Source: Oligoflexia bacterium (GTDB lineage Bacteria > Bdellovibrionota > Bdellovibrionia > JABDDW01). From it: a DNA stretch of 37,068 nucleotides. The stretch spans positions 1 through 37,068 of the forward strand of contig JAWXAT010000006.1 of the NCBI GenBank assembly GCA_034439615.1, written 5' to 3'. Below the pieces are notes generated by a model. The model was not told the DNA's origin. It made no database searches and saw only the letters and a program-made list of their open reading frames with translations. The translations under genes and the position numbers were made by a program. Below are positions 240 through 36,395 of this stretch, piece after piece (the stretch's first letter is position 1; each line of letters starts with the position of its first letter).

Positions 240-1145
240 TTAAATAATCTCAGCAATACGGCTACGAACTTTATCAATCAAAACGTGCGGTGTGCTGGCA
301 CCAGCTGTAACGCCGATACTTTTAAAACCCGAAAACCATTCTGACTTCAATTCAGCTTCGGTCTCAACAAGATAAGCTTTTTGGGAAAGTTCAGAGCAAA
401 TATCGTAGAGTTTTTGTGTGTTTGAGGAATTACGTCCGCCGATAACTACCATGCAATCCACATTGGCTGCAAGTTCATGGGCCGCCTCTTGACGATCTTT
501 AGTGGCACTGCAAATTGTATTATGAAGTTTCACTTCGGCAAATTTTTCTTTGCATTTCTCAACTACTAAATCCAAAACTTTTCTTTTTAAAGTGGTCTGA
601 CAAATTACACCTACTTTTGCACGCTCTGGCAAATTTGCCACTTCATCTGCACTTTTGATCACCGCAACTTCATCATTAGGCACATAACTTCTCACCCCTT
701 TGATTTCAGGATGATTGGCATCACCTACGATAATGACGAAATAACCATTTTGAGAAAGTTTTTTTGCAAAATTTTGGGGAACTTTCACAAGAGGACATGT
801 GGCATCAACGATTTTTAGACCTTTATCTTTAGCCTTTTCTTGAACTTGAAGGGTCACACCGTGACTTCGAAATACAACTGTACCTTCAATATTATTAATA
901 TCTTCAGCGACTTTTAAACCACGTGATGAAAGATCAGCTACGGCTTGAGGATTATGTATCAATGGGCCAAGTGATGAAATAGGACCAGAAATTTCTTTAA
1001 TGGCTTTTTCGCTTAGATCTAAAGCTCTTTCTACACCAAAACAAACCCCTGCAGTTTGAGCAGCTAAAATCGTAACACCATTTTTAACAATGGGCTGGTT
1101 GCTATATGGGAGATTTGTTTGGGGTTCTTTCATTTCAGCTGACAT
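240..1145 (-). CDS. ispH: 4-hydroxy-3-methylbut-2-enyl diphosphate reductase IspH
   Basis: Last enzyme of the MEP isoprenoid pathway: a cytosolic [4Fe-4S] enzyme that reduces HMBPP to IPP and DMAPP. All three cluster cysteines are visible at C35 (AGVCFGVERA), C117 (DATCPLV) and C212 (NTICSATKDRQ). The substrate-binding residues are also there: H64 (PLIHNPQ), H95 (RSHGV), H145 and E147 (ANHPEIKG), the QTT motif at 183-185, the S-x-N motif in GGRNSSNT, and AGASTP near the C-terminus. The length of 301 residues is normal, with about 20 extra residues before the first strand. An AAAAGG ribosome site sits just upstream of the ATG. It follows cmk with 34 bp between them, so co-transcription is likely. 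Nothing looks damaged. Confidence 0.96.
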   Translation of the reverse strand: MSAEMKEPQTNLPYSNQPIVKNGVTILAAQTAGVCFGVERALDLSEKAIKEISGPISSLGPLIHNPQAVADLSSRGLKVAEDINNIEGTVVFRSHGVTLQVQEKAKDKGLKIVDATCPLVKVPQNFAKKLSQNGYFVIIVGDANHPEIKGVRSYVPNDEVAVIKSADEVANLPERAKVGVICQTTLKRKVLDLVVEKCKEKFAEVKLHNTICSATKDRQEAAHELAANVDCMVVIGGRNSSNTQKLYDICSELSQKAYLVETEAELKSEWFSGFKSIGVTAGASTPHVLIDKVRSRIAEII

Positions 1146-1179
1146 TAAAACCTTTTCAATTTTGAAGATATATCAAACA

Positions 1180-1899
1180 CTATTGAGATTTCTTACTCTC
1201 AACAACTTTCACGATCTTATCAACAACTTCGTCAATACTCAAGGTAGAGGTGTCGATTTCGATAGCATCGTGGGCTTTAGCCATGGGAGCCACTTTGCGC
1301 TGTGAATCAGCCTCATCTCGCTGGGCAATATTTTTGATGAGTTCTTCGCTTGTGGATTTATATTCTGAGGAGCGTCTTTGAGCGCGCATATCAAGACTAG
1401 CGGTAAGGAAAATTTTCACATCAGCGTCAGGAAACACAACGGTTCCACAATCTCGGCCTTCAGCAATAAGACCTGCTGGGGGCTTGTTAAATTCACGCTG
1501 TGCCTCTAAAAGTGCTTTTCTAACTTGAGAGTATGCAGATATCCGACTAGCAATTTTTGCAGTTTCATCATTATTGATTTGTGCTGTGACATTTACATCA
1601 TCAATAAAAACTTGGGTGCCATACATGTCAGCATGAATACGAAAGCCTTGGTAATGAGCAAGGCTTGCAACTAAAACTTCATCGGTGATGTCGATTTTTT
1701 TGATTTTACAAAGCTCTGCTAAACCCCTGTAAAAAGAACCTGTTGTGAGAAAAGTCATGTTGAGTCGTCGAGCGAGTTTTCCACTCACTGTCGACTTGCC
1801 GCTTCCTGCCGGCCCGTCTATGGTAATCACAAATGCTCCCCCAAATTTTCGATTCATGTAACGTCGCTTTACCTTGTCATCTGTAGTATTTGAATCCAT
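1180..1899 (-). CDS. cmk: Cytidylate (CMP/dCMP) kinase
   Basis: Phosphorylates CMP and dCMP with ATP in pyrimidine nucleotide supply. The P-loop GPAGSGKST lies at about residues 29-37. The family signature GRDCGTVVFPDADVKIFL follows near residue 148, then RAQRR, and DTSTLSIDEVV at the C-terminus. The start is uncertain. The first ATG (1899) has no clear ribosome site, and the internal ATG at codon 15 (MNRKFGGAF, 1857) gives a length closer to the family's usual one. The gene is divergent from the hydantoinase-like locus, with only 33 bp between starts, so any promoter for one overlaps the other's coding sequence. Confidence 0.93.
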   Translation of the reverse strand: MDSNTTDDKVKRRYMNRKFGGAFVITIDGPAGSGKSTVSGKLARRLNMTFLTTGSFYRGLAELCKIKKIDITDEVLVASLAHYQGFRIHADMYGTQVFIDDVNVTAQINNDETAKIASRISAYSQVRKALLEAQREFNKPPAGLIAEGRDCGTVVFPDADVKIFLTASLDMRAQRRSSEYKSTSEELIKNIAQRDEADSQRKVAPMAKAHDAIEIDTSTLSIDEVVDKIVKVVESKKSQ

Positions 1900-1932
1900 A
1901 ATCTGATCTAATGGAGCCGTAGAGTCAAGCTT

Positions 1933-3252
1933 ATGTCATGGCAATGTGCTGCCCATATTCGAGAAATGTTTGTCGACTTTGCCGCAAGTGATGGCAAGCG
2001 CGCATTTCTATATCGAACACTCAATAGAAAAGACCAGCTTCTCATTGGCCTTATTGAAGCCCTTTCTCTTTTGCCAAAAGAATTTAAACCTGAAAACACA
2101 GATTTATTTCTGGCTACAGATTTAGCAAAAGTTTCGCTACGCGAAAAATGGGGTGCAGCAACGGCACTCCTAACAACTGAAGGGTTTGAAAATCTTTTGG
2201 AAATTGGCACTCAAGAAAGACTTTCTTTATTTGGGCTTCAAGCAAAAAAAAATACTTCACTTGTGCCGCGCGATTTGGCTTTTGGCGTAACTGAAAGAAC
2301 AAGTGCTGATGGTTCAATAGAAATTGAACTTGATGAAAAAGAAATTGAATTTGTAATTAGTAAACTTAAACTTACCGATACCAAATCAGTAGCCGTTTGT
2401 TTTTTGCATTCTAATATTAATCCAGCCCATGAAAAACAAGTAGGGAAAAAACTTACCGAAAATGGTTATAGCGTCATTTTATCACACCAATATGAAGGAA
2501 ATGAACTCGACCGAGCCCTCGCTGCAACTGAAGCTGCATTTTTGATTCCGACACGTGATTAGTTTTTAGAAGATATTATTAAACTTGGGTTTAACAAAGA
2601 TCGAATTCATATTAGAGAAAATATTCCGGCTCCGAAAAACTCACAAGCAGTTCACATTACTTTTTTAGAAGATCGTATTTGGCTAGAAAAAGTTACACCT
2701 CAAAAAACAAATCACTTCACACAGCTCTCCACTTCAGCTCTCAATCTTATTTCAAAAGATAACGGCGGCCTTATTCATGTGGGTCCAGAAAAAATCGATG
2801 GAGAACCAGGACCAGCTTGTTTTGGAAAAGGTTTAAATTTATCTTTAATGGATCTTCTCGCTTATGATCGAAAAATCATTTGTGAAGGTGTACCTCGAGC
2901 AAGAGTTGATATTAACCGGGTTACACGATTATTAGCACCACTAGCAAAACAACTTCGCATGCATCAAGACGACTGCGCCGCTCAGTATATAGATTTAGCC
3001 TGTTCACAATTAGCCTTAGAAATTGAGAACTATTTTAAAAAAGAAAAATTAGTTTTATCTCAAACTGATTTTATTTTTGAAGGATGGCTTGAGCCTTTAT
3101 TTGCTCATCAATTGGCAAAATTATTAGGTATTTCTAATTGGAAAACGTCACAATTAAGCAATTGGTCAAATTGCCTAAGACTTTTTGAAAGTCCACTACC
3201 CCAAACTATTGAAATTCAACAGGGTGTTTTTCAATTGGGAGGAGCGACATGA
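1933..3252 (+). pseudogene. HyuA/5-oxoprolinase A-like gene with in-frame TAG and lost motifs
   Basis: One frame stays open from 1933 to 3252 except for a single TAG at 2560-2562. It therefore reads as a 209-residue part and a 229-codon part in the same frame; the first internal ATG downstream is at 2779. Family landmarks are clear: LLTTEGFENLLEIGTQ, AVCFLHSNINPAHE and GPEKIDGEPGPACFGKG. What is missing matters. The N-terminal nucleotide-binding signature (usually a VDIGGTFTD form) reads HIREMFVDFA. The HGTT-type motif is absent. The middle of the Hydantoinase_A domain (SGPAGG and DMGGTS motifs) is not seen. The total of 439 codons is well short of the usual 500-700. The stop overlaps the hyuB start (ATGA). 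I read this as a decaying or heavily remodelled A subunit; a sequencing error could explain the TAG but not the lost motifs. Confidence 0.75.
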
Positions 3253-4787
3253 TTACGGATCCTTTTAAAACTGAAAAATTTCGCTACTCATGTAAAAGCA
3301 TTTTAAATAAATTAGGTGAGTCTTTTAAGAATTTCTCTGAAGTAAATGTTGCCCTTCTTGATCATCGTGGAGATCTTATTGAAGTAACGGGGTCAAACCC
3401 TCTGCATTTTGCTTCTTTTGAATTTTGCAGCAAAGCCATTAAAAAATACATCACCCCAAAACATGGGGAAATACTTATTACCAATGATCCCTACAGTGGC
3501 AACACAAGACTTTGTGATCTATTTTTTATTCAAGGTGCATTTGGAAAATCTCAAGCCAATGACTTACGTTATTATTTAGTGCTCCAAGTTTCTGTACCTC
3601 AACTTTTAAATAAGAATTTAAAAACACTTTTCACAACCGTTGAAGACGAGGGTTATCGCATTCCACCAACGCCACTTGATGTTCAAGGATTAGTGAATCC
3701 GGCGTTACTAGATTACTTATGTCAATCGGGCATGAATCGCGATGAGCTGATGCAACTTATTGGTGAAGTAAAAATCAGACTTAAAGAAGCTACAGAACAA
3801 ACCATTCAAATAGAAACAACAATAGGTTCAGATAAAGTATCAAAAATAATTACAGAACTTCGCACATACTCTGAAGATCGAATGCGCTCAGCGCTACTTG
3901 AAATCCCTGATGGTGAATATTTGGCCCATGATTATTTAGACAACGACGGCTATGACTCATCACCTATTCGCATTCAATGCCAACTCACCTGCCAAGGCCA
4001 TAATATTTTACTAAGTTTTGCCGGAAGTTCGAAGCAAACCAAAGGCCCCATGAATCTAAATTATGCGACAACTCTAGGTGCATGTTTTTGGATTATTAGA
4101 AGTTTAGTTAAAGAAGATATCCCGGTAAATTCAGGGGCATTTAAAGCGTTTTCTATTGAAGCGCCTGAAGGTACTATCGTCAATGCACGCTACCCAGCCC
4201 CTATGCTTGGCGGATATTTTGAAACATCAAAGCGCATCGTAGATGTGATTATGAGTTGCTTAAGTAAAGCTCTTCCACTTGAAATTCCAGCTCTGAGTGG
4301 TGGCTCATCTAATGTGACGCTTATGAAATCAGGTGATCAACTTTTTGTTGATGCCATAGGCTGTGGCGTTGGTGCAAGTAGAGATCACCAGGGCTCAGAT
4401 TGCATTCAGACAAATCTTCACAACACATCACTTACTTCAATTGAAGTTTTAGAAAAAACATATCCTCTACAGGTTACCCATTGCTCAATTCGTGATTCTT
4501 CAGGTGCAACAGGTAAAAAATCTGGCGGAAACGGAATCACCCGCGGTTATAAATTTTTAAAACCCACAACTCTCATGCTTCTTTCAGATCGCAGACATTA
4601 TAAACCCCATAGTCTTTTTGGCGGTGTATCAGGCTTACCTGGTGAAAATGTTGTAATTAAAAGTGGTGAGAAGAAAAAAATTCATAATGAGAAAAAAGTT
4701 ATCGAAATGAACCCAGGCGACACGCTGATAATAAATACCCCAGGCGGCGGAGCTTGGGGCAAAGAAGAAATTCAAGTTGAGAATTAG
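3249..4787 (+). CDS. Hydantoinase B / 5-oxoprolinase B-like subunit
   Basis: This is the Hydantoinase_B family partner of the preceding gene, which normally forms an ATP-dependent hydantoin, 5-oxoproline or related ring-opening hydrolase. Landmarks are NDPYSGNTRLCDL at about residues 79-91, LLSFAGSSKQTKGPMNLN, PVNSGAFKAF, GGYFETSKRIVDV, ALSGGSS and the C-terminal NTPGGGAWG. The 512 residues approach the family's usual length and the frame is intact. GGGAGG a few bases before the ATG is a good ribosome site. The substrate cannot be told from sequence. With its A partner interrupted, activity is doubtful. Its last 54 bp recur in diverged form at 6233-6286. It converges on the glycosidase gene with no spacer. 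Confidence 0.85.
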   Translation: MITDPFKTEKFRYSCKSILNKLGESFKNFSEVNVALLDHRGDLIEVTGSNPLHFASFEFCSKAIKKYITPKHGEILITNDPYSGNTRLCDLFFIQGAFGKSQANDLRYYLVLQVSVPQLLNKNLKTLFTTVEDEGYRIPPTPLDVQGLVNPALLDYLCQSGMNRDELMQLIGEVKIRLKEATEQTIQIETTIGSDKVSKIITELRTYSEDRMRSALLEIPDGEYLAHDYLDNDGYDSSPIRIQCQLTCQGHNILLSFAGSSKQTKGPMNLNYATTLGACFWIIRSLVKEDIPVNSGAFKAFSIEAPEGTIVNARYPAPMLGGYFETSKRIVDVIMSCLSKALPLEIPALSGGSSNVTLMKSGDQLFVDAIGCGVGASRDHQGSDCIQTNLHNTSLTSIEVLEKTYPLQVTHCSIRDSSGATGKKSGGNGITRGYKFLKPTTLMLLSDRRHYKPHSLFGGVSGLPGENVVIKSGEKKKIHNEKKVIEMNPGDTLIINTPGGGAWGKEEIQVEN

Positions 4788-6116
4788 TTATTTTACGAGG
4801 CATTTAACAATACCTGAGCAACTGACCTTTTGCCTAAATACACGTTTGAATTTATCAGTTCGCGATTCCGGCAATCGATAGGGTTGTTCTAAACACGCGG
4901 TGAGTTGTTTTTCACCACGCAAGAGTTTTGTTATGTCTCCAGCAACACGCAAATAAAAATCTGAAGAAATATTTTTTCCATCAGCATCAAGTGTTAGAAA
5001 CTTCTGGCTCACTGGACTCATCGATGCATTTTCTGCAGCTTTAGCAATAGCTGTTGATTCATCGTATTCATCAAACATCGCAATAAATGCTGAGACTCCT
5101 AATTTTTTAGTCCAATAAGCTTGTGCCCAAAATAAATCACCCGCTGCACGAGGAATCATATTAAATTTTCCACCATTCCAATTTGACCATGCAAACCCCG
5201 GAAATATAACTCTCTGATAAAGAACATTATATTGATCACAAAGTTTTTTATCATCAATATGCATTTTTACATGATTATTTAATAACTCGAGAGCAGATGC
5301 ATAAACACCCACTGACCAAGGTTGCACCATATCGAATTTTAAGTATGTCGAAAGCCAATTTGCTTTTGAATTATTAATTCCCTGACGCCACCAATAAGGA
5401 ACTCCGCCAATTACCATAAAACCTTTTTCATGAAACCAACGAATGAGTTCCAACGCTTGCTCTTGAGTACCTGGGCGATCAGTATAACCAAAACCCCAAA
5501 GTGCAATGACCGGCCGACCTTTGTGTTTTGCGTATTGTGGAGAATCTAAAACTTTTGTCTCAAGTTCTAACCAATCTTTTTTAATATCAGAAACTAAAGT
5601 AGCTTCATTAGAACTCGTGATGTCATATTCCATATAAAAACTGCGATCATACTTCTGGGCATTTTGTCGAACAAGAACTGCAACATCATCACGTAACATT
5701 TTTTGAAAAGGAAGATTTAGCTCTGAGACAAATCGTTGCAGAGCAACTCCGTCTATTCCATATTCTTTCATCCAACGAAAATGTGTATCAACTACTCCTG
5801 CTCGATCAGAGGCAAAAAGCATTGAAGGTTGGCCATTGCCCAGTACACCTAAACCTGTTTCTTGAAGATCATCAGCGTTGTATTCACGTACATCAGGATA
5901 AAGTTCAAATTTAATCTGACCTACAGAAGGTATTTGACCCGCGTTCCAATGTGTCCAAATTCCATTTTTGCTTAACTTTTGTGTGCTAAACCAACCCTGG
6001 TAGCCCGCGAATGTTTGCTGCAAAAATTCTTTATTTGGTGTTTTGGAAATTAAAGCTTTTGCATCCAGACTAAAAAAACCCGCAAATAAACATATGAAAA
6101 GAAAACGATGATTCAT
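4788..6116 (-). CDS. Secreted GH71/GH99-like glycoside hydrolase
   Basis: The N-terminus MNHRFLFICLFAGFFSLDAKA is a typical signal peptide. The mature part has the hallmarks of GH71/GH99-like TIM-barrel hydrolases of bacteria: FAGYQGWFSTQ, the WTHWNAG segment, LYPDVREYNADDL, MKEYGIDGVALQRF, YMEYDITSS, VIALWGFGYTD and FIAMFDEYDESTA. Relatives act on alpha-mannan or alpha-glucan chains, but the substrate here is unknown. I chose the ATG at 6116 because AGGGTAGGGG lies directly upstream and the signal peptide begins there; a GTG seven codons earlier is possible. A four-cysteine C-terminal region (ACLEQPY, VSCSGIVKCL) may be disulphide-bonded. The gene is flanked by the hyuB end and by the mosaic scar, so it may be a recent arrival. 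Confidence 0.75.
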   Translation of the reverse strand: MNHRFLFICLFAGFFSLDAKALISKTPNKEFLQQTFAGYQGWFSTQKLSKNGIWTHWNAGQIPSVGQIKFELYPDVREYNADDLQETGLGVLGNGQPSMLFASDRAGVVDTHFRWMKEYGIDGVALQRFVSELNLPFQKMLRDDVAVLVRQNAQKYDRSFYMEYDITSSNEATLVSDIKKDWLELETKVLDSPQYAKHKGRPVIALWGFGYTDRPGTQEQALELIRWFHEKGFMVIGGVPYWWRQGINNSKANWLSTYLKFDMVQPWSVGVYASALELLNNHVKMHIDDKKLCDQYNVLYQRVIFPGFAWSNWNGGKFNMIPRAAGDLFWAQAYWTKKLGVSAFIAMFDEYDESTAIAKAAENASMSPVSQKFLTLDADGKNISSDFYLRVAGDITKLLRGEKQLTACLEQPYRLPESRTDKFKRVFRQKVSCSGIVKCLVK

Positions 6117-6200
6117 ATCCCCTACCCTCTGATTCACGTTTTCGTTTTATTTAAGTTGAATGTAAAGAACTAAGAGAAAATTATAAACGTTACACGGCTA

Positions 6201-6286
6201 AAATGAATGAGATCACTCATTCGATTATGATTAATACCCCAGGCGGTGGAGCCTGGGGCAAAGAAGAAGTTCAAATCGAAAGTTAA
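6201..6286. pseudogene. Mosaic scar: ilvA-like fragment fused to hyuB 3'-end fragment
   Basis: Bases 6201-6235 match 10718-10752 inside ilvA at 33 of 35 positions, in the same orientation as at the ilvA locus; the minus strand reads INHNRMSDLIH versus INHNRMSDRIH. Sharing the bases AAT, positions 6233-6286 then match the last 54 bp of hyuB (4734-4787) at 46 of 54 positions. They read NTPGGGAWGKEEVQIES-stop on the plus strand. Five of the eight differences are at third codon positions and the three amino-acid changes are conservative, so the fragment descends from a functional but diverged allele. Neither fragment can be a gene. It marks a recombination joint between two versions of this locus. 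Confidence 0.8.
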
Positions 6287-6293
6287 AGAAATT

Positions 6294-7343
6294 TTAAACG
6301 ACGTTTTTTGCCATTAATTTCAAACTAGTTTTCTTAAGATAAGCAATCATCAGTAGTGGAAGTGTTAAGAGTACAAGAGGAGGAGCGCCTGGGCCACCCT
6401 TTCCACTGTCTTTTGCATTAACTATTCCACAGCCCATCCCTTTTTCTGATGTTTTCTTTTGTGCAACACAAGCATGCTGTTCACAACCACTAGCAGGACA
6501 TTCGGTAGTAACACCTGCAGAAAGATCATCAGTAGAATTATAAAGAGCAATATTCCATTTCATCGTTGTCGCCTCTGGATTTAAAGCGCAATAAGCGAGC
6601 ATCAATTTTGAAAAAATACGATCAGTACACTCAGACTTTGCCTTACTTAATGCTGATACCTTGCCAATGTTATGTTTCACATGATCCACACTGATATCTG
6701 CAGAACTGTATGCTGGCAAATTGCCATCAAAAATAACACAGGATCCATATTGAACTGGTGGTGGCAACGTTGGCGTTGGCTCTGAAGCAGGTGCCCGCTC
6801 TGAAACTGACAGTACCGGCGTTGCGGCCGGTGTTGGCGCAGTTGTGGTCACAGGTGTTGGAGTTGCAACAGGTAGTGGCGCTGGTAATGATAATGGTGGC
6901 CTTGGACATGTATGAGAAACACATCCAGTTATTGCACATCCTGATATAGCATTGACAGGTTCGCCTGCAGAATAATATGCAGCAACTCCCCATTGTGCAG
7001 AAGTAATTTTTGGATTTGCTGTACAGTACACATCCATCAATTCTAGGAAAACACTATCGGTGCACGCAGTCTGAGCACTTCCAAATGTTGTCACATTCCC
7101 AATATTACGTTTCACATAAACTGAACCTTCATTTGCAGCAGCATAAGCAGGAAGACTTGTACTTTCACTGCGAATAACACAAGCACCATATTGCACACTT
7201 GGCACTGGCGTTGGTGTTGCGATCGGAGTTGGTGTTGGTGTTGAGCCAGACTTGGCTAGGTATTGTTTAATAATTACATCCTTAAACACACACACTCGAA
7301 AAACTATTTGGAGGAAGCGTGTTGGCTTGACCATAAATATCAC
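6294..7343 (-). CDS. C-terminal part of split cysteine-repeat surface protein, with membrane sorting tail
   Basis: This frame carries two copies of a roughly 95-residue cysteine-rich repeat (DNA 6906-7196 and 6468-6755), Thr/Pro linkers, and a C-terminal tail. The tail has GMGCGIVN, a GKGGPGAPP spacer, a hydrophobic stretch (LVLLTLPLLMIAYL) and basic residues (KK). That layout matches the Cys-containing C-terminal sorting signals of surface proteins such as MYXO-CTERM types. There is no signal peptide at the front. The only starts, GTG at 7343 or ATG at 7334, have no ribosome site. It continues the upstream gene with a one-base frame change at the GT tract 7286-7295. I regard it as the distal part of one gene, not an independent one. 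Confidence 0.7.
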   Translation of the reverse strand: MIFMVKPTRFLQIVFRVCVFKDVIIKQYLAKSGSTPTPTPIATPTPVPSVQYGACVIRSESTSLPAYAAANEGSVYVKRNIGNVTTFGSAQTACTDSVFLELMDVYCTANPKITSAQWGVAAYYSAGEPVNAISGCAITGCVSHTCPRPPLSLPAPLPVATPTPVTTTAPTPAATPVLSVSERAPASEPTPTLPPPVQYGSCVIFDGNLPAYSSADISVDHVKHNIGKVSALSKAKSECTDRIFSKLMLAYCALNPEATTMKWNIALYNSTDDLSAGVTTECPASGCEQHACVAQKKTSEKGMGCGIVNAKDSGKGGPGAPPLVLLTLPLLMIAYLKKTSLKLMAKNVV

Positions 7344-7773
7344 AAATATTTACGAGACAAGATTCCTGTGTTGTGTAGAGACCCTTTGTAATATTACTTC
7401 CATCAACCATATCAAGCCTGCAAATGTCATATGGATTTGGCGTTGGTGTAGCTGATGGTGCAATTGACGGTGTGGGAGTTGGTGTCGATGCAGGACATTT
7501 ATGATAGTCACACCCACTCGCTGCGCATCCGGTAACTTGATATGAGCCAACTGAATCATAAGCGGCTACACCCCATTGTACATTCTCCGCATTGGGGATC
7601 AGTGTACAAAAATTAACCATTAATTCCGCAAAAAATTTATCCGTACATGCTAACTGCGCTTGAGCATATGTTGTTACATTACCAATGTTACGTTTCACAT
7701 AGTTAGTTCCTACATCGGCAGCATAGTATCCGGGGAGATTTCCATTACGAATTATACACGACCCAAACTGTAT
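6468..7773 (-). repeat. Three copies of a ~95-residue Cys-rich domain across the split gene
   Basis: Copies lie at 7495-7773, 6906-7196 and 6468-6755 on the minus strand. The shared pattern is Q-Y/F-G-x-C, then LP-A/G-Y, VK-R/H-NIG-x-V, an A-x-x-x-CTD segment, an LM-x-x-Y/F-C segment, A-x-Y, GC-x-x-x-GC and H-x-C. Six to seven cysteines are conserved in position, suggesting disulphides outside the cytoplasm. The first copy is in the upstream frame and the other two are in the downstream frame. I do not recognise the domain. Confidence 0.75.
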
Positions 7774-10455
7774 CCCAGTCGCTGGGCTTGGTGTCGGTGT
7801 CGGATTGGGCGAGACAGGCGTAACTGTTAGTACTTGTGTATAAACACCAACTAAACCACTGCAAGTTACTGCGGCCACTTTGTAATAATATAATGTACCA
7901 CTGGTTACAGTTGTATCATCAAATTTATACATATTTGAAACTATGGAAGATGGTCCACCAATTGATAACCACGGGCCACTTGAATTTGTTGCACGCATAG
8001 TTACATAGTCGCATGCATCGGTCACAAGATTCCATTGTGCTGAAACTTTGTAATTTCCAGCAGTAAGTTGAAAACCAGTAGGAGCGGGCAACGATACTGG
8101 TGGGCCTACTGGCACGACGGATAAATTTTCAGGTGAATAAAGACCCTCGTTGCCATTACCGTCTATAGCGGCAACACGATAAAAATAAAGTGTCCCATTA
8201 ACAACAGTTAAATCTGCGAGTACAAATGTGTTTGAATTTAAAGATGTAGTTGGGCCATTCACTGTACTCCACGGACCTGAGGTACTTAACGCACGCTTGA
8301 TGCTATAACTACTTGCACCAGTAACTCGGCTCCACTGCACTCCGACTTGCTTATTCCCCGCTGTTAACTGAACCGTAGGCGCTGCAAGTTGCACTACCGT
8401 TCCCATTGGTGGTGTTGCACTTAAAATATTTGTATATACTCCAGGTTGGCTATTTGCATTTAGCGCTGCAGCTCGGTAGTAATAAGTCACACCGTTAAGA
8501 GCCGTTAGGTCTACTAAAACAAATCCTGAAGATGTTGTAGTCGTTGACCCATTCACTTCAGCAAAAGTTCCATTGGCAGACGGACTTCTTTGTACGGAGT
8601 AACCTGTAGCACCTGGTACGGCCTGCCATTGTATCAGTACTTCATTATTAGCTGTACCAAGTAGAAACATCGTCGGCGCTGGTAATTGTCCAACATTACC
8701 TTGATTGACGATCACGCCAATAGCTGCAGTATCAGAACTTTCATCGCCATATCCGTTTAACGCAGAAACTGCATAATAATAAGTAGTCCCAGCTACTAGC
8801 CCTGAATCAGTATATTGATTTAATGTAATCGTGGAAACAGTGTTCGGATAAGCCACTGCAATTTTAGTCAGTGCATTTGGAGCTGTACCCCTTTTTATGT
8901 GATACGCAAATGCTCCGTTATTATTTCCCCAAGACAAATTAACTTGGTGATTGCTCGTTGTTACATTATATGGCCACGGCGTTGTTGGAACTGAAACAAG
9001 TCGAGGTGTTGCAGTTGGCACTGGAGTTGATTGAGCTGATGGCGTGCACCCTATTTTATAAACATTTGATTTTCTGTATTTCACACCAGCAACTGATGAG
9101 GCTTCTTCATATGTTTCATAGGCATGACGAAAAAGATTCCCAGATTTATCGATAGTTAATTTCCCATGATCGCCTGAAGGATTTGCTAAGTTTGCATGCG
9201 CGACAGAACCGTTGAGCACTGTATTATTGAAAAATCGAAGTTGATTTGTGGCACAGTAACCTTGATTACAAATGCCTTCTTGCGATACCCAACTAATGCC
9301 TCCATCTGTGCTTCGTAATAGTTTACTAGCTGTATAGTTTCCACCTGTTGGATGAATGACAACATATAAATTGCCAAGATGATCTGCGCCTGTATTTAAA
9401 ATTCCATAAGAGCCCGTAAGAAGATTCTCGTACAATGGCAACATCGACCATTGGGTACCGTCAGAAGTCCCGCGAAGCAACGCTGGGTATTGCCCCCCAG
9501 TAGCTGGCTGTATATCAACAAACAACAAGATCTGATTTCTACTATTGAAATCATCATAGAATCCTGTCCTATAGCCGATAACTCCTGAACCTAATAACTG
9601 GGTCAATTGATTTAAATTTTCACCGACCGGAGTAGATTGAACTGTGTTCAATCTACGCGCATGATAAGCCCTTACATTTGAACCGTACGTACTAACTGTA
9701 CCAAATGTAAAAATATTACCTTTGCGATCTTTCAAATAATCCCAGGGGTAGAAACTTGAATTTACAGAATAAACAGTATCGTCCACAACAGTCCACCCAC
9801 CAGAGATGGTGTTGCGTTTTATTACTGAAACAGCATTACTAAAATTACCTGTGCCTGATCGTATGACTCCAAAAATATCGCCAACTTGATTTTCAAAAAA
9901 TTTCAATCTGAGAATAGAGTAATTATAATTTAATGAGGAAGTGGTTCGCATGGGATTAAATTTAAATTCAGGACCCTTGTACCATGAAGCTTGGTTGCTG
10001 ATGTAAATCACATTATTCATCACTCCGTTAGCAACCCCACCCGCATAGATATTTCCCAATCTATCAGATTCAGCTGAATCATTTGAGAATGACCAGGCAT
10101 AATTTTTTAATATATGGTTTTTAGAATCACGCATAAATATTGCGTTTGAATTAGCTACAAAAGAACCACCGTTTAATACAGATAAATTACCCTTACCAAC
10201 TACTACTGGTTGATCTGCTGAGCCAAAACTAAAAAAACCACGAGACTCTTCTTCGGTCGTATAAGCCGAAGAATTGTGATCTGAAAATGTAAACTCATCC
10301 GACAATGTCCAATCACCAGAATATGATGTCGTGCATATTTGAGGGTTGATGCTCGTATAATTAAAATTTTGGTATCCAACAAAAATAACAGAAAGAATTA
10401 GAAATACAGAAAATTTCTTGAGCCTATTTTTATATAGGTTTTTGCCCGTAAACAT
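7282..10455 (-). CDS. Large secreted fibronectin-III / Asp-box protein, N-terminal part of split gene
   Basis: The ATG at 10455 follows a GTGGAGGG ribosome site. Residues 1-35 are a basic then hydrophobic secretion signal. Residues about 40-480 look like a beta-propeller, with an Asp-box RSTDGGISW near 380-388 and related SDGTQW and DRKGNIF segments. Four fibronectin-III domains follow, starting at about 492, 590, 689 and 788; the last three open with L-P/A-APT, and all carry YYY/YFY-type strands. One Cys-rich repeat occupies about 894-987, then a Thr/Pro linker and a four-cysteine segment that ends at a TAA just after a (GT)5 tract. Reading on with one extra GT unit enters the downstream frame smoothly. 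The likely role is a surface-anchored adhesin or carbohydrate-binding protein; that is inference from domain layout. Confidence 0.8.
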   Translation of the reverse strand: MFTGKNLYKNRLKKFSVFLILSVIFVGYQNFNYTSINPQICTTSYSGDWTLSDEFTFSDHNSSAYTTEEESRGFFSFGSADQPVVVGKGNLSVLNGGSFVANSNAIFMRDSKNHILKNYAWSFSNDSAESDRLGNIYAGGVANGVMNNVIYISNQASWYKGPEFKFNPMRTTSSLNYNYSILRLKFFENQVGDIFGVIRSGTGNFSNAVSVIKRNTISGGWTVVDDTVYSVNSSFYPWDYLKDRKGNIFTFGTVSTYGSNVRAYHARRLNTVQSTPVGENLNQLTQLLGSGVIGYRTGFYDDFNSRNQILLFVDIQPATGGQYPALLRGTSDGTQWSMLPLYENLLTGSYGILNTGADHLGNLYVVIHPTGGNYTASKLLRSTDGGISWVSQEGICNQGYCATNQLRFFNNTVLNGSVAHANLANPSGDHGKLTIDKSGNLFRHAYETYEEASSVAGVKYRKSNVYKIGCTPSAQSTPVPTATPRLVSVPTTPWPYNVTTSNHQVNLSWGNNNGAFAYHIKRGTAPNALTKIAVAYPNTVSTITLNQYTDSGLVAGTTYYYAVSALNGYGDESSDTAAIGVIVNQGNVGQLPAPTMFLLGTANNEVLIQWQAVPGATGYSVQRSPSANGTFAEVNGSTTTTSSGFVLVDLTALNGVTYYYRAAALNANSQPGVYTNILSATPPMGTVVQLAAPTVQLTAGNKQVGVQWSRVTGASSYSIKRALSTSGPWSTVNGPTTSLNSNTFVLADLTVVNGTLYFYRVAAIDGNGNEGLYSPENLSVVPVGPPVSLPAPTGFQLTAGNYKVSAQWNLVTDACDYVTMRATNSSGPWLSIGGPSSIVSNMYKFDDTTVTSGTLYYYKVAAVTCSGLVGVYTQVLTVTPVSPNPTPTPSPATGIQFGSCIIRNGNLPGYYAADVGTNYVKRNIGNVTTYAQAQLACTDKFFAELMVNFCTLIPNAENVQWGVAAYDSVGSYQVTGCAASGCDYHKCPASTPTPTPSIAPSATPTPNPYDICRLDMVDGSNITKGLYTTQESCLVNICDIYGQANTLPPNSFSSVCV

Positions 10456-10493
10456 TGAAGCCCTCCACACGTTCCGCTCTTAAATTACCTATT

Positions 10494-10614: not shown

Positions 10615-11826
10615 TTATTCTATGACCTTTGAACCCAGCGCAACAAAACCTTTTTTAATTTCATCGATCTGATCTTGCCCTGTGGTTTCTAAAGTGAACT
10701 CAATAATCGTCTCACGCAAATGAATGCGATCACTCATTCGATTGTGATTAATCTGTAAAACGTTAGCTCTTTTTTCAGCAATCAAAGTAGTAAGCTTATT
10801 GAGCGTCCCTGGAACATCCGGCGCTGCTACAGTGATTTTTGCTAAACGACCTGAAACTTGAAAACCTCGATCAATAATACGCTCAAGCATATTTAGATCA
10901 ATATTACCGCCACTCAAAAGAGCAACTGCCTTTTTACATTTAAATTTATCTTTGTGAGCCACAAGGGCAGCAAGTGATGAAGCACCCGCTCCTTCAACAA
11001 CTGTTTTTGCCCGTTCCATTAAAAACACAATGATCTTTGCAATCTCATCATCGCTGACAGTGACCACATCATCACAGAGTTTTGAAATAAAACTATCGTA
11101 CATAACTTGAGATGGTCTTTTCACAGCGATACCATCAGCAATGGTTGAAACAGGTTTTAATTCCATGACTAATTTTTTATCGCGAAAACTTTGAGCCATG
11201 CTGTCAGCACCAACTGCTTGAACACCAATGATTTTAATTTTTGGATTTAATGATTTAAGCGCAATGGCAATACCACTAAGAAGTCCGCCCCCACCAATGG
11301 GAATAAAAACTACTTCTGCATCTGGAATATCTTCAAAAATTTCAAGACCAATAGTGCCTTGACCTGCAATGATTTTTTCATCTTCAAAGGGATGAATAAA
11401 AATCGCGCCACTTATTTTTTGAAGCGTGAGTGCGTGCTGATAGGCCTCATCATAGGCCACACCTTTTAAAATAACTTCCGCACCAAATCTTTTTGTAGAA
11501 ACGACTTTAATGAGAGGACTCTGTTCAGGCATTACGATTGTCGCTTTAATACCCAATTTTTGGGCTATACAAGCAACACCTTGCGCGTGATTACCGGCCG
11601 AGGCTGCGATCACGCCTGCTTTTTTTTCTGCGTCAGTTAATTGGATGAGTTTATTTGCAGCTCCACGAATCTTAAAACTTCCTGTGAGTTGAAAATTTTC
11701 ATACTTTAAGAAAACATCAAACCCCGAAAGCTTGCTGCAGTTAGCAGAGTATTCTAAAGTCGTACGATTAATGTGCGGCTTTATGAGCAAACTGGCTTTT
11801 TGAATATCCGCTAACGTCACTTTCAA
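10615..11826 (-). CDS. ilvA: Threonine ammonia-lyase (threonine deaminase) with C-terminal ACT domain
   Basis: PLP enzyme that converts threonine to 2-oxobutyrate and ammonia, the entry to isoleucine synthesis or threonine catabolism. The PLP lysine is K52 in GSFKIRGA. SAGNHAQG (76-83) and the phosphate-binding GGGGL (178-182) are intact. The last 80 residues form an ACT-type regulatory domain (TVAAPDVPGTLNKL, then INHNRMSDRIHLRE). At 403 residues it belongs to the shorter TdcB/IlvA class with one ACT domain, not the 500-residue biosynthetic enterobacterial type. It starts 4 bp after the small zinc-ribbon gene, so the two probably share the promoter at 12133-12162. A 35-bp stretch of its ACT region recurs at 6201-6235. 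Confidence 0.92.
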   Translation of the reverse strand: MKVTLADIQKASLLIKPHINRTTLEYSANCSKLSGFDVFLKYENFQLTGSFKIRGAANKLIQLTDAEKKAGVIAASAGNHAQGVACIAQKLGIKATIVMPEQSPLIKVVSTKRFGAEVILKGVAYDEAYQHALTLQKISGAIFIHPFEDEKIIAGQGTIGLEIFEDIPDAEVVFIPIGGGGLLSGIAIALKSLNPKIKIIGVQAVGADSMAQSFRDKKLVMELKPVSTIADGIAVKRPSQVMYDSFISKLCDDVVTVSDDEIAKIIVFLMERAKTVVEGAGASSLAALVAHKDKFKCKKAVALLSGGNIDLNMLERIIDRGFQVSGRLAKITVAAPDVPGTLNKLTTLIAEKRANVLQINHNRMSDRIHLRETIIEFTLETTGQDQIDEIKKGFVALGSKVIE

Positions 11827-11830
11827 ATTT

Positions 11831-12088
11831 TCACCAGTATGCAGTTAGCCCCCGAATGGGTCCAAAATTATCAACCTTACCTGGAGTAAAGCGAGGATCT
11901 TTAAACAGATCAGGTTTTTGTTCTCCAGGTCTTACTTCATTGTCAGCGTAATCAATGATTTTACGCTTATCAAAGTAATAAAACGGCAAGAGTGACTTGT
12001 TACAAAACAAACATTTTATGATGTCATCACAACTCTCGGTTATTTTGCCACAGAGGTGGCAACGTCGAACATGAAGTGGTTGACTCAT
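11831..12088 (-). CDS. Small zinc-ribbon-like protein of unknown function
   Basis: 85 residues. Two Cys pairs, RCHLCGK at 9-15 and KCLFCNK about 13 residues later, look like a four-cysteine zinc ribbon. The rest is polar and includes FTPGKVDNFGPIRGL near the end. There is no signal peptide or membrane segment. AAGGAG precedes the ATG at good spacing, and the gene lies just downstream of a strong promoter. It is the first gene of a two-gene unit with ilvA. I do not recognise the family; a regulatory or RNA/protein-binding role would be a guess. Confidence 0.75.
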   Translation of the reverse strand: MSQPLHVRRCHLCGKITESCDDIIKCLFCNKSLLPFYYFDKRKIIDYADNEVRPGEQKPDLFKDPRFTPGKVDNFGPIRGLTAYW

Positions 12089-12132
12089 AGGTTCTCCTTA
12101 CCCCACAATTTGGTTAATTGCCCTATTAATAG

Positions 12133-12162
12133 AGTATAATAAACCAGACCTACGTCTGTCAA
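12133..12162 (-). promoter_or_regulatory. Sigma70-type promoter for the zinc-ribbon gene and ilvA
   Basis: On the minus strand a perfect -35 TTGACA (12157-12162) and a -10 TATACT (12133-12138, five of six) are separated by 18 bp. Predicted transcription starts near 12126, giving a leader of about 38 bases before the ATG at 12088. It is one of the two best promoter matches found in the window. Confidence 0.65.
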
Positions 12163-12191
12163 AGCACGCGCACTGCGGTATTTGAATTATG

Positions 12192-12224
12192 TTTGCGCCA
12201 AAGTGTCGAACGACTTGACGCAAA
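12192..12224. promoter_or_regulatory. Imperfect inverted repeat upstream of nrdJ
   Basis: TTTGCG (12192-12197) pairs with CGCAAA (12219-12224). Inside, CAA, GT and CG can pair with CGACTTG, with small bulges. It ends 27 bp before the nrdJ ATG. It does not resemble the NrdR box consensus and is far too short for a cobalamin riboswitch. It could be an operator or a leader hairpin. Confidence 0.35.
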
Positions 12225-12251
12225 ACACAGTTTTCATAGACTTAAAGCAAT

Positions 12252-13958
12252 ATGATTAAAAATCTGTTCACAGAAAATGCACTTACCGTACTTCACGATC
12301 GCTACCTTTGGCGTAAATCAAAGCGAAATGTGGAAACACCTGAGGAGATGCTCAAGCGAGTTGCAAAACACGTTGCCGGGCCTTCTAAGCAGCTAGAAAA
12401 GCGATTTCTGTTAGCACTGAGTGAGCTTGCTTTTTTACCCAACTCGCCCACTCTGATGAACGCCGGAAAAAAACAAGCTCAACTTGCAGCGTGTTTTGTT
12501 TTACCTCTAGCTGATGATCTGACAGAAATCATGAACACACTTAAATCAACAGCCCTCATTCATCAATCAGGTGGTGGGACAGGCTTTAGTTTTTCAAGCC
12601 TACGACCTGAAAAATCACAAGTGCAGTCAAGTAACGGTGTCGCTGCAGGCCCACTTGGTTTTCTCTCATTATTTAATGAACTAACTCAAACAATTAAACA
12701 AGGTGGCCTTAGACGTGGTGCAAATATGGGTGTTCTTTCAGTTGAACATCCCGATATTGAAGCCTTTATTCACTGTAAGACTGATATTTCTAAAATCACA
12801 AATTTTAATATCTCTGTAGCGGTCACAAATAAATTTATTAACGCTGTCAAAAATGATTCCTCATGGAATCTCATTGATCCTCATACGAGAAAAAAAGTAA
12901 AAACTGTATCTGCATCAAAATTATTTCAAGACATTTGTGAGGCCGCTTGGCTCACGGGTGAACCCGGACTCATTTTTATTGATGAGATTAATAAAAATAA
13001 CCCTACTCCCAAAAAAGGTATCATGGAGGCCACTAATCCTTGTGGAGAACAACCACTCTTACCCTATGAAGCATGTAATCTAGGAAGCATTAATCTCAAT
13101 GTCATTTATCAAAAAAATAATAGCGATTCAATTAATTGGAGTAAACTTTCCGAACTCACTGAAACAGGAGTTTTGTTTTTAGATCGTGTCATTGATACCT
13201 GCACTTACCCAGTTCCTGAGATTCATGATCTTTGCCATGCCAATCGCAAAATTGGTTTAGGAGTTATGGGTTTTGCGGATTTGCTATTGAAACTTAATAT
13301 CGCTTATGGTTCACCCGAATCATATGTTGTGGGTGAAAAAATTATGGAATTTATTCGTACACAAGCTGTACTTGTCAGCCAACAATTAGCAAAAAAACAC
13401 GGAGCCTTTGATGGATTCTCTCAAAGCCTCTGGAATAAACGCGGCCTTAAACCATTAAGAAATGCAACACTTACAACAATTGCGCCCACTGGCACCATCA
13501 GTCTTCTTTGCAATGCCTCTGCCGGAATAGAGCCTATATTTAGCTATGCCTATGAGCGACACGTGTTAGATAAAAAAATATTAAGAGAAGTTCACCCCTA
13601 TGCTGAGGCCGTTTTAAAAGAACGAGGTCTTTACAATGAATCACTTTTAAAAATCATGTCTCAAGAAGGCACGTTTAAAGACGCGTCGATTCCAGATGAT
13701 ATAAAAAATATTTTTGTTACAACCAGAGATCTTACTGCAACCCAACATGTAGAGATGCAAGCACGTTTTCAAAAACATTCAGATAGTGGCGTATCAAAAA
13801 CAATAAATCTTTCAAACAAAGCTTCAGTTCAAGACGTGCAAGTGGCTTTTATGCTCGCAGCTAAATTAAAATGTAAAGGCATTACAATATATCGCGATGG
13901 CACAAGACCTGATCAAGTTTTACAATTAAAAAATTGTCCTGATTGCACGAGAATTTAA
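12252..13958 (+). CDS. nrdJ: Class II (adenosylcobalamin-dependent) ribonucleotide reductase
   Basis: Makes deoxyribonucleotides with B12, without oxygen or a separate radical subunit. The redox-pair cysteines are C81 (LAACFVLP) and C275 (YEACNLGSINL). The thiyl-radical C264 and E266 sit in NPCGEQ at 262-267. Other landmarks are PNSPTLMNAG, GGGTGFSFSSLRP, GLRRGANMG, APTGTISLL and YRDGTRPDQVL. The protein ends at NCPDCTRI. Many relatives continue with a further Cys-rich tail after such a CxxC, so this one is short (568 residues). The remaining CxxC may serve as the C-terminal reducing pair. The ribosome site is weak. It stands alone, converging on the response-regulator gene. Confidence 0.93.
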   Translation: MIKNLFTENALTVLHDRYLWRKSKRNVETPEEMLKRVAKHVAGPSKQLEKRFLLALSELAFLPNSPTLMNAGKKQAQLAACFVLPLADDLTEIMNTLKSTALIHQSGGGTGFSFSSLRPEKSQVQSSNGVAAGPLGFLSLFNELTQTIKQGGLRRGANMGVLSVEHPDIEAFIHCKTDISKITNFNISVAVTNKFINAVKNDSSWNLIDPHTRKKVKTVSASKLFQDICEAAWLTGEPGLIFIDEINKNNPTPKKGIMEATNPCGEQPLLPYEACNLGSINLNVIYQKNNSDSINWSKLSELTETGVLFLDRVIDTCTYPVPEIHDLCHANRKIGLGVMGFADLLLKLNIAYGSPESYVVGEKIMEFIRTQAVLVSQQLAKKHGAFDGFSQSLWNKRGLKPLRNATLTTIAPTGTISLLCNASAGIEPIFSYAYERHVLDKKILREVHPYAEAVLKERGLYNESLLKIMSQEGTFKDASIPDDIKNIFVTTRDLTATQHVEMQARFQKHSDSGVSKTINLSNKASVQDVQVAFMLAAKLKCKGITIYRDGTRPDQVLQLKNCPDCTRI

Positions 13959-35147: not shown

Positions 35148-36395
35148 TTAGAGTGTAAGCTTCAGGTTCAAAGTCGCAAAATAGTAGTTTAAACCTTCAA
35201 TGGGTGACCCGACTTGAGGCCCGTAGGTATATGCAAGAGCGTCATCAGTACGGTAACTGATGTTCCAGAGATACCGAACATCTGCTCCTACTGAAAGTTT
35301 TTTTGTAGCGCTAATATCAACACCAACAAGTAAACCGCCATCAAAAGCATTTGAACCGCTAATTGCTGTATTGCCTGTGTACCCGTAAGAAACACGATTT
35401 GTGTAATTACGACGAGTATAACCGACAATTGCGCCAACTACAGGTGTTACGCGCCCAGGAAGTATTCCATAAGTTGCAGCTCCTGAAAGATTCATTTGGT
35501 TCATTGTAACAACTAAGCTTTGACCACTGTAACAGTAGTAACAAGGCGTTACGTTTTTAATGTCATAACTTGAATACATAAATGATGCTTCAATTCCAAA
35601 TCTATCAGGCATTTGAAGATCAGCAGCCACACCAGCAGCGTAAGCACCGTTTACGTTACTTACAGAAGGATATGAACCCACACCAGCAAGACCACCAACA
35701 CGAAACTTTGATTGCTGTTCTAATTCTACAGGTTTTGTATCTTCAGTTTTAACCACAACACTGTTTTCAACAGGAACTGGTTGAACAACAATTTGTTGTT
35801 GCTGTTGAACTGGCGCTGGAGCAGGTGCTGGAGTTGCAACAGGCTGAACAACAACTTGTTGTTGCTGTTGAACTGGCGCTGCAGCTGGAGCAAATAATTT
35901 ATCAGCACGTTCTTTTTCAGATAAAATGCGATCATCTTCTAAACGTTGTGTAAGTCTATCTTCAGTTTGACGTTCCATATCTTCACGTTGTTTTCTCAAC
36001 TGATCAGCCTTTGACTCACGAATCGCTTGAGCCTCAACAGTAGTTGCTGGCTGAACTTGTGCCTGACCACTTTGAGTTGGGGGCTGAACTATATAGATAG
36101 GTTGAAACGTTGGTTGCGCAGGTTGCTGCACTTGTTGTTGCTGTTGTTGAACCTGAATAGTAGGTGAACCTTGAGTTTGAGCAGGTCTAACTGTCTGCAC
36201 TTCAACTCGTGTTGTATCACCGATATCAGCTTGAGCCAGTTTCACCCTCGTCTTTTTAGGACGCTTTGGATATAACTGCTCGATATCCTGATTCAACTCA
36301 TCTTTGAGCCCTTCGTTGTAATCAGCTGCATGAATAGTTACTGACATAACCATCATACTGACAACTGCTAGGGGCAACGCGATTAACTTCTTCAT
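35148..36395 (-). CDS. Outer-membrane beta-barrel protein with Gln/Pro-rich periplasmic linker
   Basis: Signal peptide MKKLIALPLAVVSMMVMSVTIHA. Residues about 25-230 are low complexity: poly-Gln runs, VQP and PAPAPA segments, and a charged coiled-coil stretch (ADQLRKQREDMERQTEDRL). Residues about 232-415 form a barrel of alternating strands (RVGGLAGVGSYPSV, IEASFMYSSYDIK, VTPVVGAIVGYTRRNY, VGADVRYLWNISY) ending in FATLNLKLTL. A CYYCY pair sits in a loop. AAGGAG before the ATG is a good ribosome site. The linker could span the periplasm or bind peptidoglycan; that is a guess. It ends at its own terminator. Confidence 0.8.
   Translation of the reverse strand: MKKLIALPLAVVSMMVMSVTIHAADYNEGLKDELNQDIEQLYPKRPKKTRVKLAQADIGDTTRVEVQTVRPAQTQGSPTIQVQQQQQQVQQPAQPTFQPIYIVQPPTQSGQAQVQPATTVEAQAIRESKADQLRKQREDMERQTEDRLTQRLEDDRILSEKERADKLFAPAAAPVQQQQQVVVQPVATPAPAPAPVQQQQQIVVQPVPVENSVVVKTEDTKPVELEQQSKFRVGGLAGVGSYPSVSNVNGAYAAGVAADLQMPDRFGIEASFMYSSYDIKNVTPCYYCYSGQSLVVTMNQMNLSGAATYGILPGRVTPVVGAIVGYTRRNYTNRVSYGYTGNTAISGSNAFDGGLLVGVDISATKKLSVGADVRYLWNISYRTDDALAYTYGPQVGSPIEGLNYYFATLNLKLTL
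35782..35883 (-). repeat. Internal duplication encoding the two poly-Gln segments
   Basis: A 39-bp block at 35782-35820 recurs at 35845-35883 with two or three mismatches (63-bp offset). Each encodes APVQQQQQ followed by a V/I-VVQPV motif. Each block also contains the inverted repeat AACAACAA / TTGTTGTT around one base. Confidence 0.8.

Follow-up and report, generated by a model that had tools for sequence, protein, structure and literature searches.

The segment at positions 6201–6286 of the window (the whole stretch of DNA that was analysed, 37,068 nt from the forward strand of contig JAWXAT010000006.1, Oligoflexia bacterium, assembly GCA_034439615.1) is a dead recombination footprint and no functional element: a piece of ilvA fused to the tail of hyuB, lying between two cargo genes that separate the intact copies of both parents. 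As such it is real but ordinary, a footprint of known kind. Among the histories considered, the most likely route to it, held tentatively, is the stacking of cargos at the hyuB–ilvA slot by recombination between two alleles, for which we infer a donor, an order of events and transformation. All coordinates refer to the window unless another contig is named (Table 1).

Table 1. Coordinates of the composite relic, its parent genes and the two cargo genes in the window
Feature	Positions	Strand	Description
ilvA' relic	6201–6235	−	copy of ilvA 10718–10752 (C-terminal ACT region), 33/35
AAT common to ilvA' and hyuB' at the joint	6233–6235		parents 9/14 alike in register
hyuB' relic	6233–6286	+	copy of the last 18 hyuB codons with stop (4734–4787), 46/54
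hyuB, intact, hydantoinase B/oxoprolinase family	3249–4787	+	Pfam PF02538; hyuB' parent at 4734–4787
ilvA, intact, threonine ammonia-lyase (PALP + ACT)	10615–11826	−	Pfam; TIGR01127 above cut-off; ilvA' parent at 10718–10752
Cargo 1, predicted distant GH99-like glycosidase	4788–6116	−	stop codon directly abuts hyuB stop
Cargo 2, FnIII-repeat secreted/surface protein	6294–10455	−	stop 7 bp past hyuB' stop

The genes of the window are ordered ispH (−), cmk (−), hyuA (+), hyuB (+), glycosidase (−), relic, FnIII gene (−), ilvA (−) and nrdJ (+). With a repeat finder, 6201–6235 was matched to 10718–10752 at 94% (33/35) and 6222–6285 to 4723–4786 at 83%; at codon level, 6236–6286 differed from hyuB 4737–4787 at 8 positions in 51 bp, which with the AAT gives 46/54. 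When 6150–6300 was searched by BLAST against the whole 3.0-Mb genome from which it comes, just two other places were matched, ilvA (E = 9.5e-9) and hyuB (E = 2.9e-12). The parents are exactly the two genes bounding the interval, and both copies are direct repeats of them, the ilvA piece preceding the hyuB piece; with parents so placed and both repeats direct, a chance origin of the matches is excluded. The sequence-only reading had given the same extents, identities and shared bases for the two pieces, all of them right, and had described a joint of tandem type, with which the order and direct orientation of the copies agree. A promoter-like site was sought in the relic and none was found; a terminator role was considered and set aside, the one weak hairpin (6204–6223) being unconvincing. 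Within 6204–6222, an inverted repeat that is imperfect in ilvA has been made perfect over 7 bp (GAATGAG-ATCA-CTCATTC) by one of the two ilvA' changes, in the manner of a quasi-palindrome correction.

Misassembly at the relic is unlikely. The contig is metagenome-assembled and the assembly is in 70 contigs, so that two strains or distant pieces might have been merged at this point; against this, the 3 exact bases shared by the parents at the joint (9/14 loosely) are too short for an assembly join, both pieces have substitutions of their own, and GC3 is uniform (0.22–0.29) over the flanking and cargo genes, and we give such a merger next to no credence.

The family profile of the predicted glycosidase reaches GH99 endo-mannosidase structures at E = 0.0017, and one family member matches Pfam GH99 at 2e-5. 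Two paralogues (61% and 57%) are located elsewhere in the same genome, the GH99-like copies being those at 4788–6116, at L055 (G000:C69) 8093–9442 and at L056 (G000:C12) 7597–9432; among 144 genomes of the class, only two others have members of this family. The FnIII gene is read as two overlapping frames (6294–7343 and 7282–10470), with a short minus-strand GT repeat where they meet (7282–7343); its homologue in the relative G002 (C61, 4143–7262) is one continuous frame of 1039 aa, and the split is possibly a slippage switch, a mutation or a consensus error. Upstream of hyuB, hyuA (1933–3252) is broken by a single in-frame TAG at 2560–2562, the homologues in the relatives G001 and G002 being open, and two adjacent 54-bp repeats (89% alike) are present at 35775–35891, within an outer-membrane-like gene (35148–36395). 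Neither the ORFs of the interval nor their families include an integrase; an integrative element with an attachment site at a gene end was therefore rejected, the two repeats, moreover, belonging to different genes.

The closest genomes compared were two relatives of the same family, G001 and G002. In both, the same neighbours are found in the same order and hyuB and ilvA follow directly on each other in convergent orientation, with a gap of 200 bp in G001 and a 4-bp overlap of stop codons in G002. The relic was sought in 59 relative genomes, these two included, without a match; local repeats in the hyuB–ilvA regions of the relatives contained no tail relic, and a scan of the genome contigs for hyuB gave only an unrelated 25% match. 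The glycosidase is nowhere in G001 or G002, and the FnIII relative of G002 is on another contig (C61), the gap itself being without an FnIII gene. From this near-empty gap of the relatives, without glycosidase, FnIII gene or relic, the ~5.8 kb between hyuB and ilvA appears, as far as the genomes compared go, to be private to this lineage.

Throughout the class, hyuB and ilvA lie linked and convergent, with gaps of −4 to 5213 bp between species: overlapping or of a few bases in G005 and G048, 92 bp in G033, 142 bp in G024 and 0.7–5.2 kb in others. Elsewhere in the class the gap holds msrA with a solute-binding protein (SBP) gene, HNH, DUF4423, Ysc84 or unidentified genes. Because these contents differ between genomes, the interval is a slot filled differently by different species, and the pair is ancient and the slot between its members variable. 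The idea of alternative cargos in the interval, put forward for different strains from the sequence of the window, is in this respect borne out between species. The slot need not be special, since the next convergent gap of G002 (response regulator/nrdJ) also holds a 3.5-kb gene, L059 (G002:C92) 557–4060; that gap is closed in G001 and nearly closed in the window.

Aligned as in the relic, hyuB and ilvA match at 9/14 positions across the joint; when all 1525 hyuB 14-mers are set against that ilvA 14-mer, only 5 attain this. The exact microhomology is 3 bp (AAT), and given the 9/14 likeness it is to be read as 3 bp or more. The hyuB of G001 reads GTCATTAAC at the site where ilvA reads GTGATTAAT, so at the time of joining the two may have had more bases in common. 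Of the ilvA copy 35 bp are retained and the following ~100 bp of the ilvA 3' end are gone. When this lost end was sought to the left of 6201, right-anchored extension gave only a marginal result (p = 0.03) and local alignment left free was not significant (p = 0.72), so none is claimed; the spacers upstream of the glycosidase and of the FnIII gene had no homology to each other (p = 0.16). A simple tandem duplication does not describe the interval: the gene content to the left of the relic is not that to its right, and only the ends are repeated. A unit that was once duplicated, if there was one, must since have been replaced.

In the most likely, still tentative, history, a resident allele hyuB–FnIII–ilvA would have received DNA from a related allele hyuB∗–glycosidase–ilvA∗. 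The incoming DNA would have been exchanged homologously inside hyuB, and its ilvA∗ end would have been joined illegitimately to the resident hyuB tail at an ATTAAT-like microhomology, so that the new cargo was added, the old one was not replaced and the resident hyuB tail was left behind as hyuB'. Having no function, the bulk of ilvA∗ (~100 bp of its 3' end) would have been lost at the event or later. Such stacking is supported by the exact matches to the flanking genes, by the empty, relic-free gap in G001 and G002 together with the variable gap of the class, and by the parental likeness at the joint. Against it stand that no single-cargo strain is known, that a separate loss of the ~100 bp is required, and that a hyuB divergence of ~15% would reduce homologous exchange.

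Within hyuB', 5 of the 8 differences are synonymous (one of them TAG/TAA) and the other 3 replace an amino acid conservatively (I/V, V/I, N/S); not one of the 8 is a transversion. A simulation on the 17 hyuB' codons was used to compare a model in which both copies were functional until recently with one in which one copy has been dead since duplication. The functional-allele model was favoured 2.6–5.4 fold over a dead in-situ copy across a range of assumptions (simulated likelihood ratio), and three or fewer nonsynonymous changes of 8 had a probability of 0.07–0.13 under the dead-copy model. The ratio is small, and between a live and a dead copy most of the changes that fall on the live branch are silent in any case. 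The two differences in ilvA', one synonymous and one R to L, are both on the relic side relative to the family; the suspicion that R to L had struck an invariant residue was ruled out, R occurring only in the three family members and the position being mostly G elsewhere. With both changes acquired by the relic, and one of them altering an amino acid, ilvA' lends the functional-allele reading no support. The claim, made at first sight of the sequence, that silent changes mark a diverged functional allele can thus be kept as a lean for hyuB', whose source may have been such an allele, and falls away for ilvA'.

The ends of the genes lean the same way. The similarity of hyuB' ends at its stop codon (homology past that stop was sought and none was found), the FnIII stop follows 7 bp on, and the glycosidase stop lies 0 bp past the live hyuB, as expected if cargos were packed tightly behind a functional hyuB. 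For the stacking of cargos between alleles, both the mostly silent or conservative, transition-only changes of hyuB' and the placing of the FnIII gene, as if installed behind a then-functional hyuB, count in favour.

This architecture is also accounted for by a tandem duplication in situ, at microhomology, of the stretch that runs from the tail of hyuB to that of ilvA, FnIII gene included or not. It would have given hyuB–gap–ilvA'/hyuB'–gap–ilvA with both genes intact, after which the glycosidase would have entered the dead left unit, removing most of ilvA', and the copies would have diverged by drift. This history needs the fewest events, derives the truncation of ilvA' from the glycosidase insertion, suits the relic-side position of both ilvA' changes, and belongs to a class of event known in bacteria as microhomology tandem duplication (PMC3161906); it predicts, however, more nonsynonymous change in hyuB' than was observed, and the FnIII gene would have to end within 7 bp of an already dead stop, unless it predates the duplication. 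It is a serious contender, and weighs on the preferred history in that the likelihood preference for the latter is small and that ilvA' is less diverged (2/35), with changes resembling decay. A further point in favour of the in-situ duplication is a second gene-tail relic in the same genome. In 0.76 Mb sampled, about a quarter of the 3.0 Mb, one other composite relic of this kind was found, L117 (G000:C36) 9022–9149: a 49-bp 3' end and an abutting 79-bp inner piece of the neighbouring ATPase gene (12010–13206), 98% and 96% identical, located 3 kb from that parent in the gap after a convergent gene end. Gene-tail relics are, by this example, not unique to the hyuB–ilvA gap.

Templated filler is improbable. 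In this account, break repair with template switching at the insertion of a cargo would have copied short patches of ilvA (35 bp) and hyuB (54 bp) between the cargos, and a pair of directly oriented patches taken from close by and fused at microhomology does resemble complex junctions of E. coli (PMC3161906); the ending of the hyuB patch exactly at the hyuB/glycosidase boundary would, however, be a coincidence, and so would the tandem order.

The inter-allele stacking considered most likely has parts with known counterparts. In natural transformation, homology-facilitated illegitimate recombination combines one homologous anchor with one microhomology joint. It would give exactly an ilvA∗–hyuB joint, here from a putative donor and with competence presumed. 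Hotspots without mobile elements are documented to exchange their cargo through recombination in the core genes at their flanks (2017, PMC5635113). The present locus shares with these the conserved flanks, the variable cargo, a footprint such as recombination within the flanks could leave, and cargo genes among which, as far as examined here, no integrase or transposase was recognised; it differs in that two cargos are stacked, the relic would reflect an additive, partly illegitimate event, and the comparison is between species. In E. coli, duplications and template switches with microhomology at their joints have been described (PMC3161906); merodiploids from transformation, with events between long repeats, are a further parallel (PMC3784515). 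The former tandem duplications resemble the relic in their novel joint, end of unit then start of unit with short bases in common; in both studies the events were fresh laboratory ones over whole genes, whereas the relic is an old and diverged one, of which erosion has left 86 bp.

Gene-fragment pseudogenes occur in the intergenic regions of prokaryotes, and like them the relic consists of dead gene pieces between genes. It differs in that pieces from the ends of the two flanking genes are combined in it, and for that reason its order informs on the event. To take it as proof of a diverged functional allele or of alternative cargos at strain level goes beyond the evidence. That it records additive cargo uptake at a slot free of mobile elements, where illegitimate end-to-end joining stacks cargos instead of swapping them and leaves a scar each time, is a doubtful proposition for now. 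The relic would then be a footprint that carries direction and is datable by its divergence, of a second cargo added to an occupied gap without a recognised mobile element. If true, cargo gains in slots between convergent genes could be counted and put in sequence from their stacking scars, and if tail relics prove common, the order and the mode (replacing or stacking) of gene gains would become readable from single genomes.
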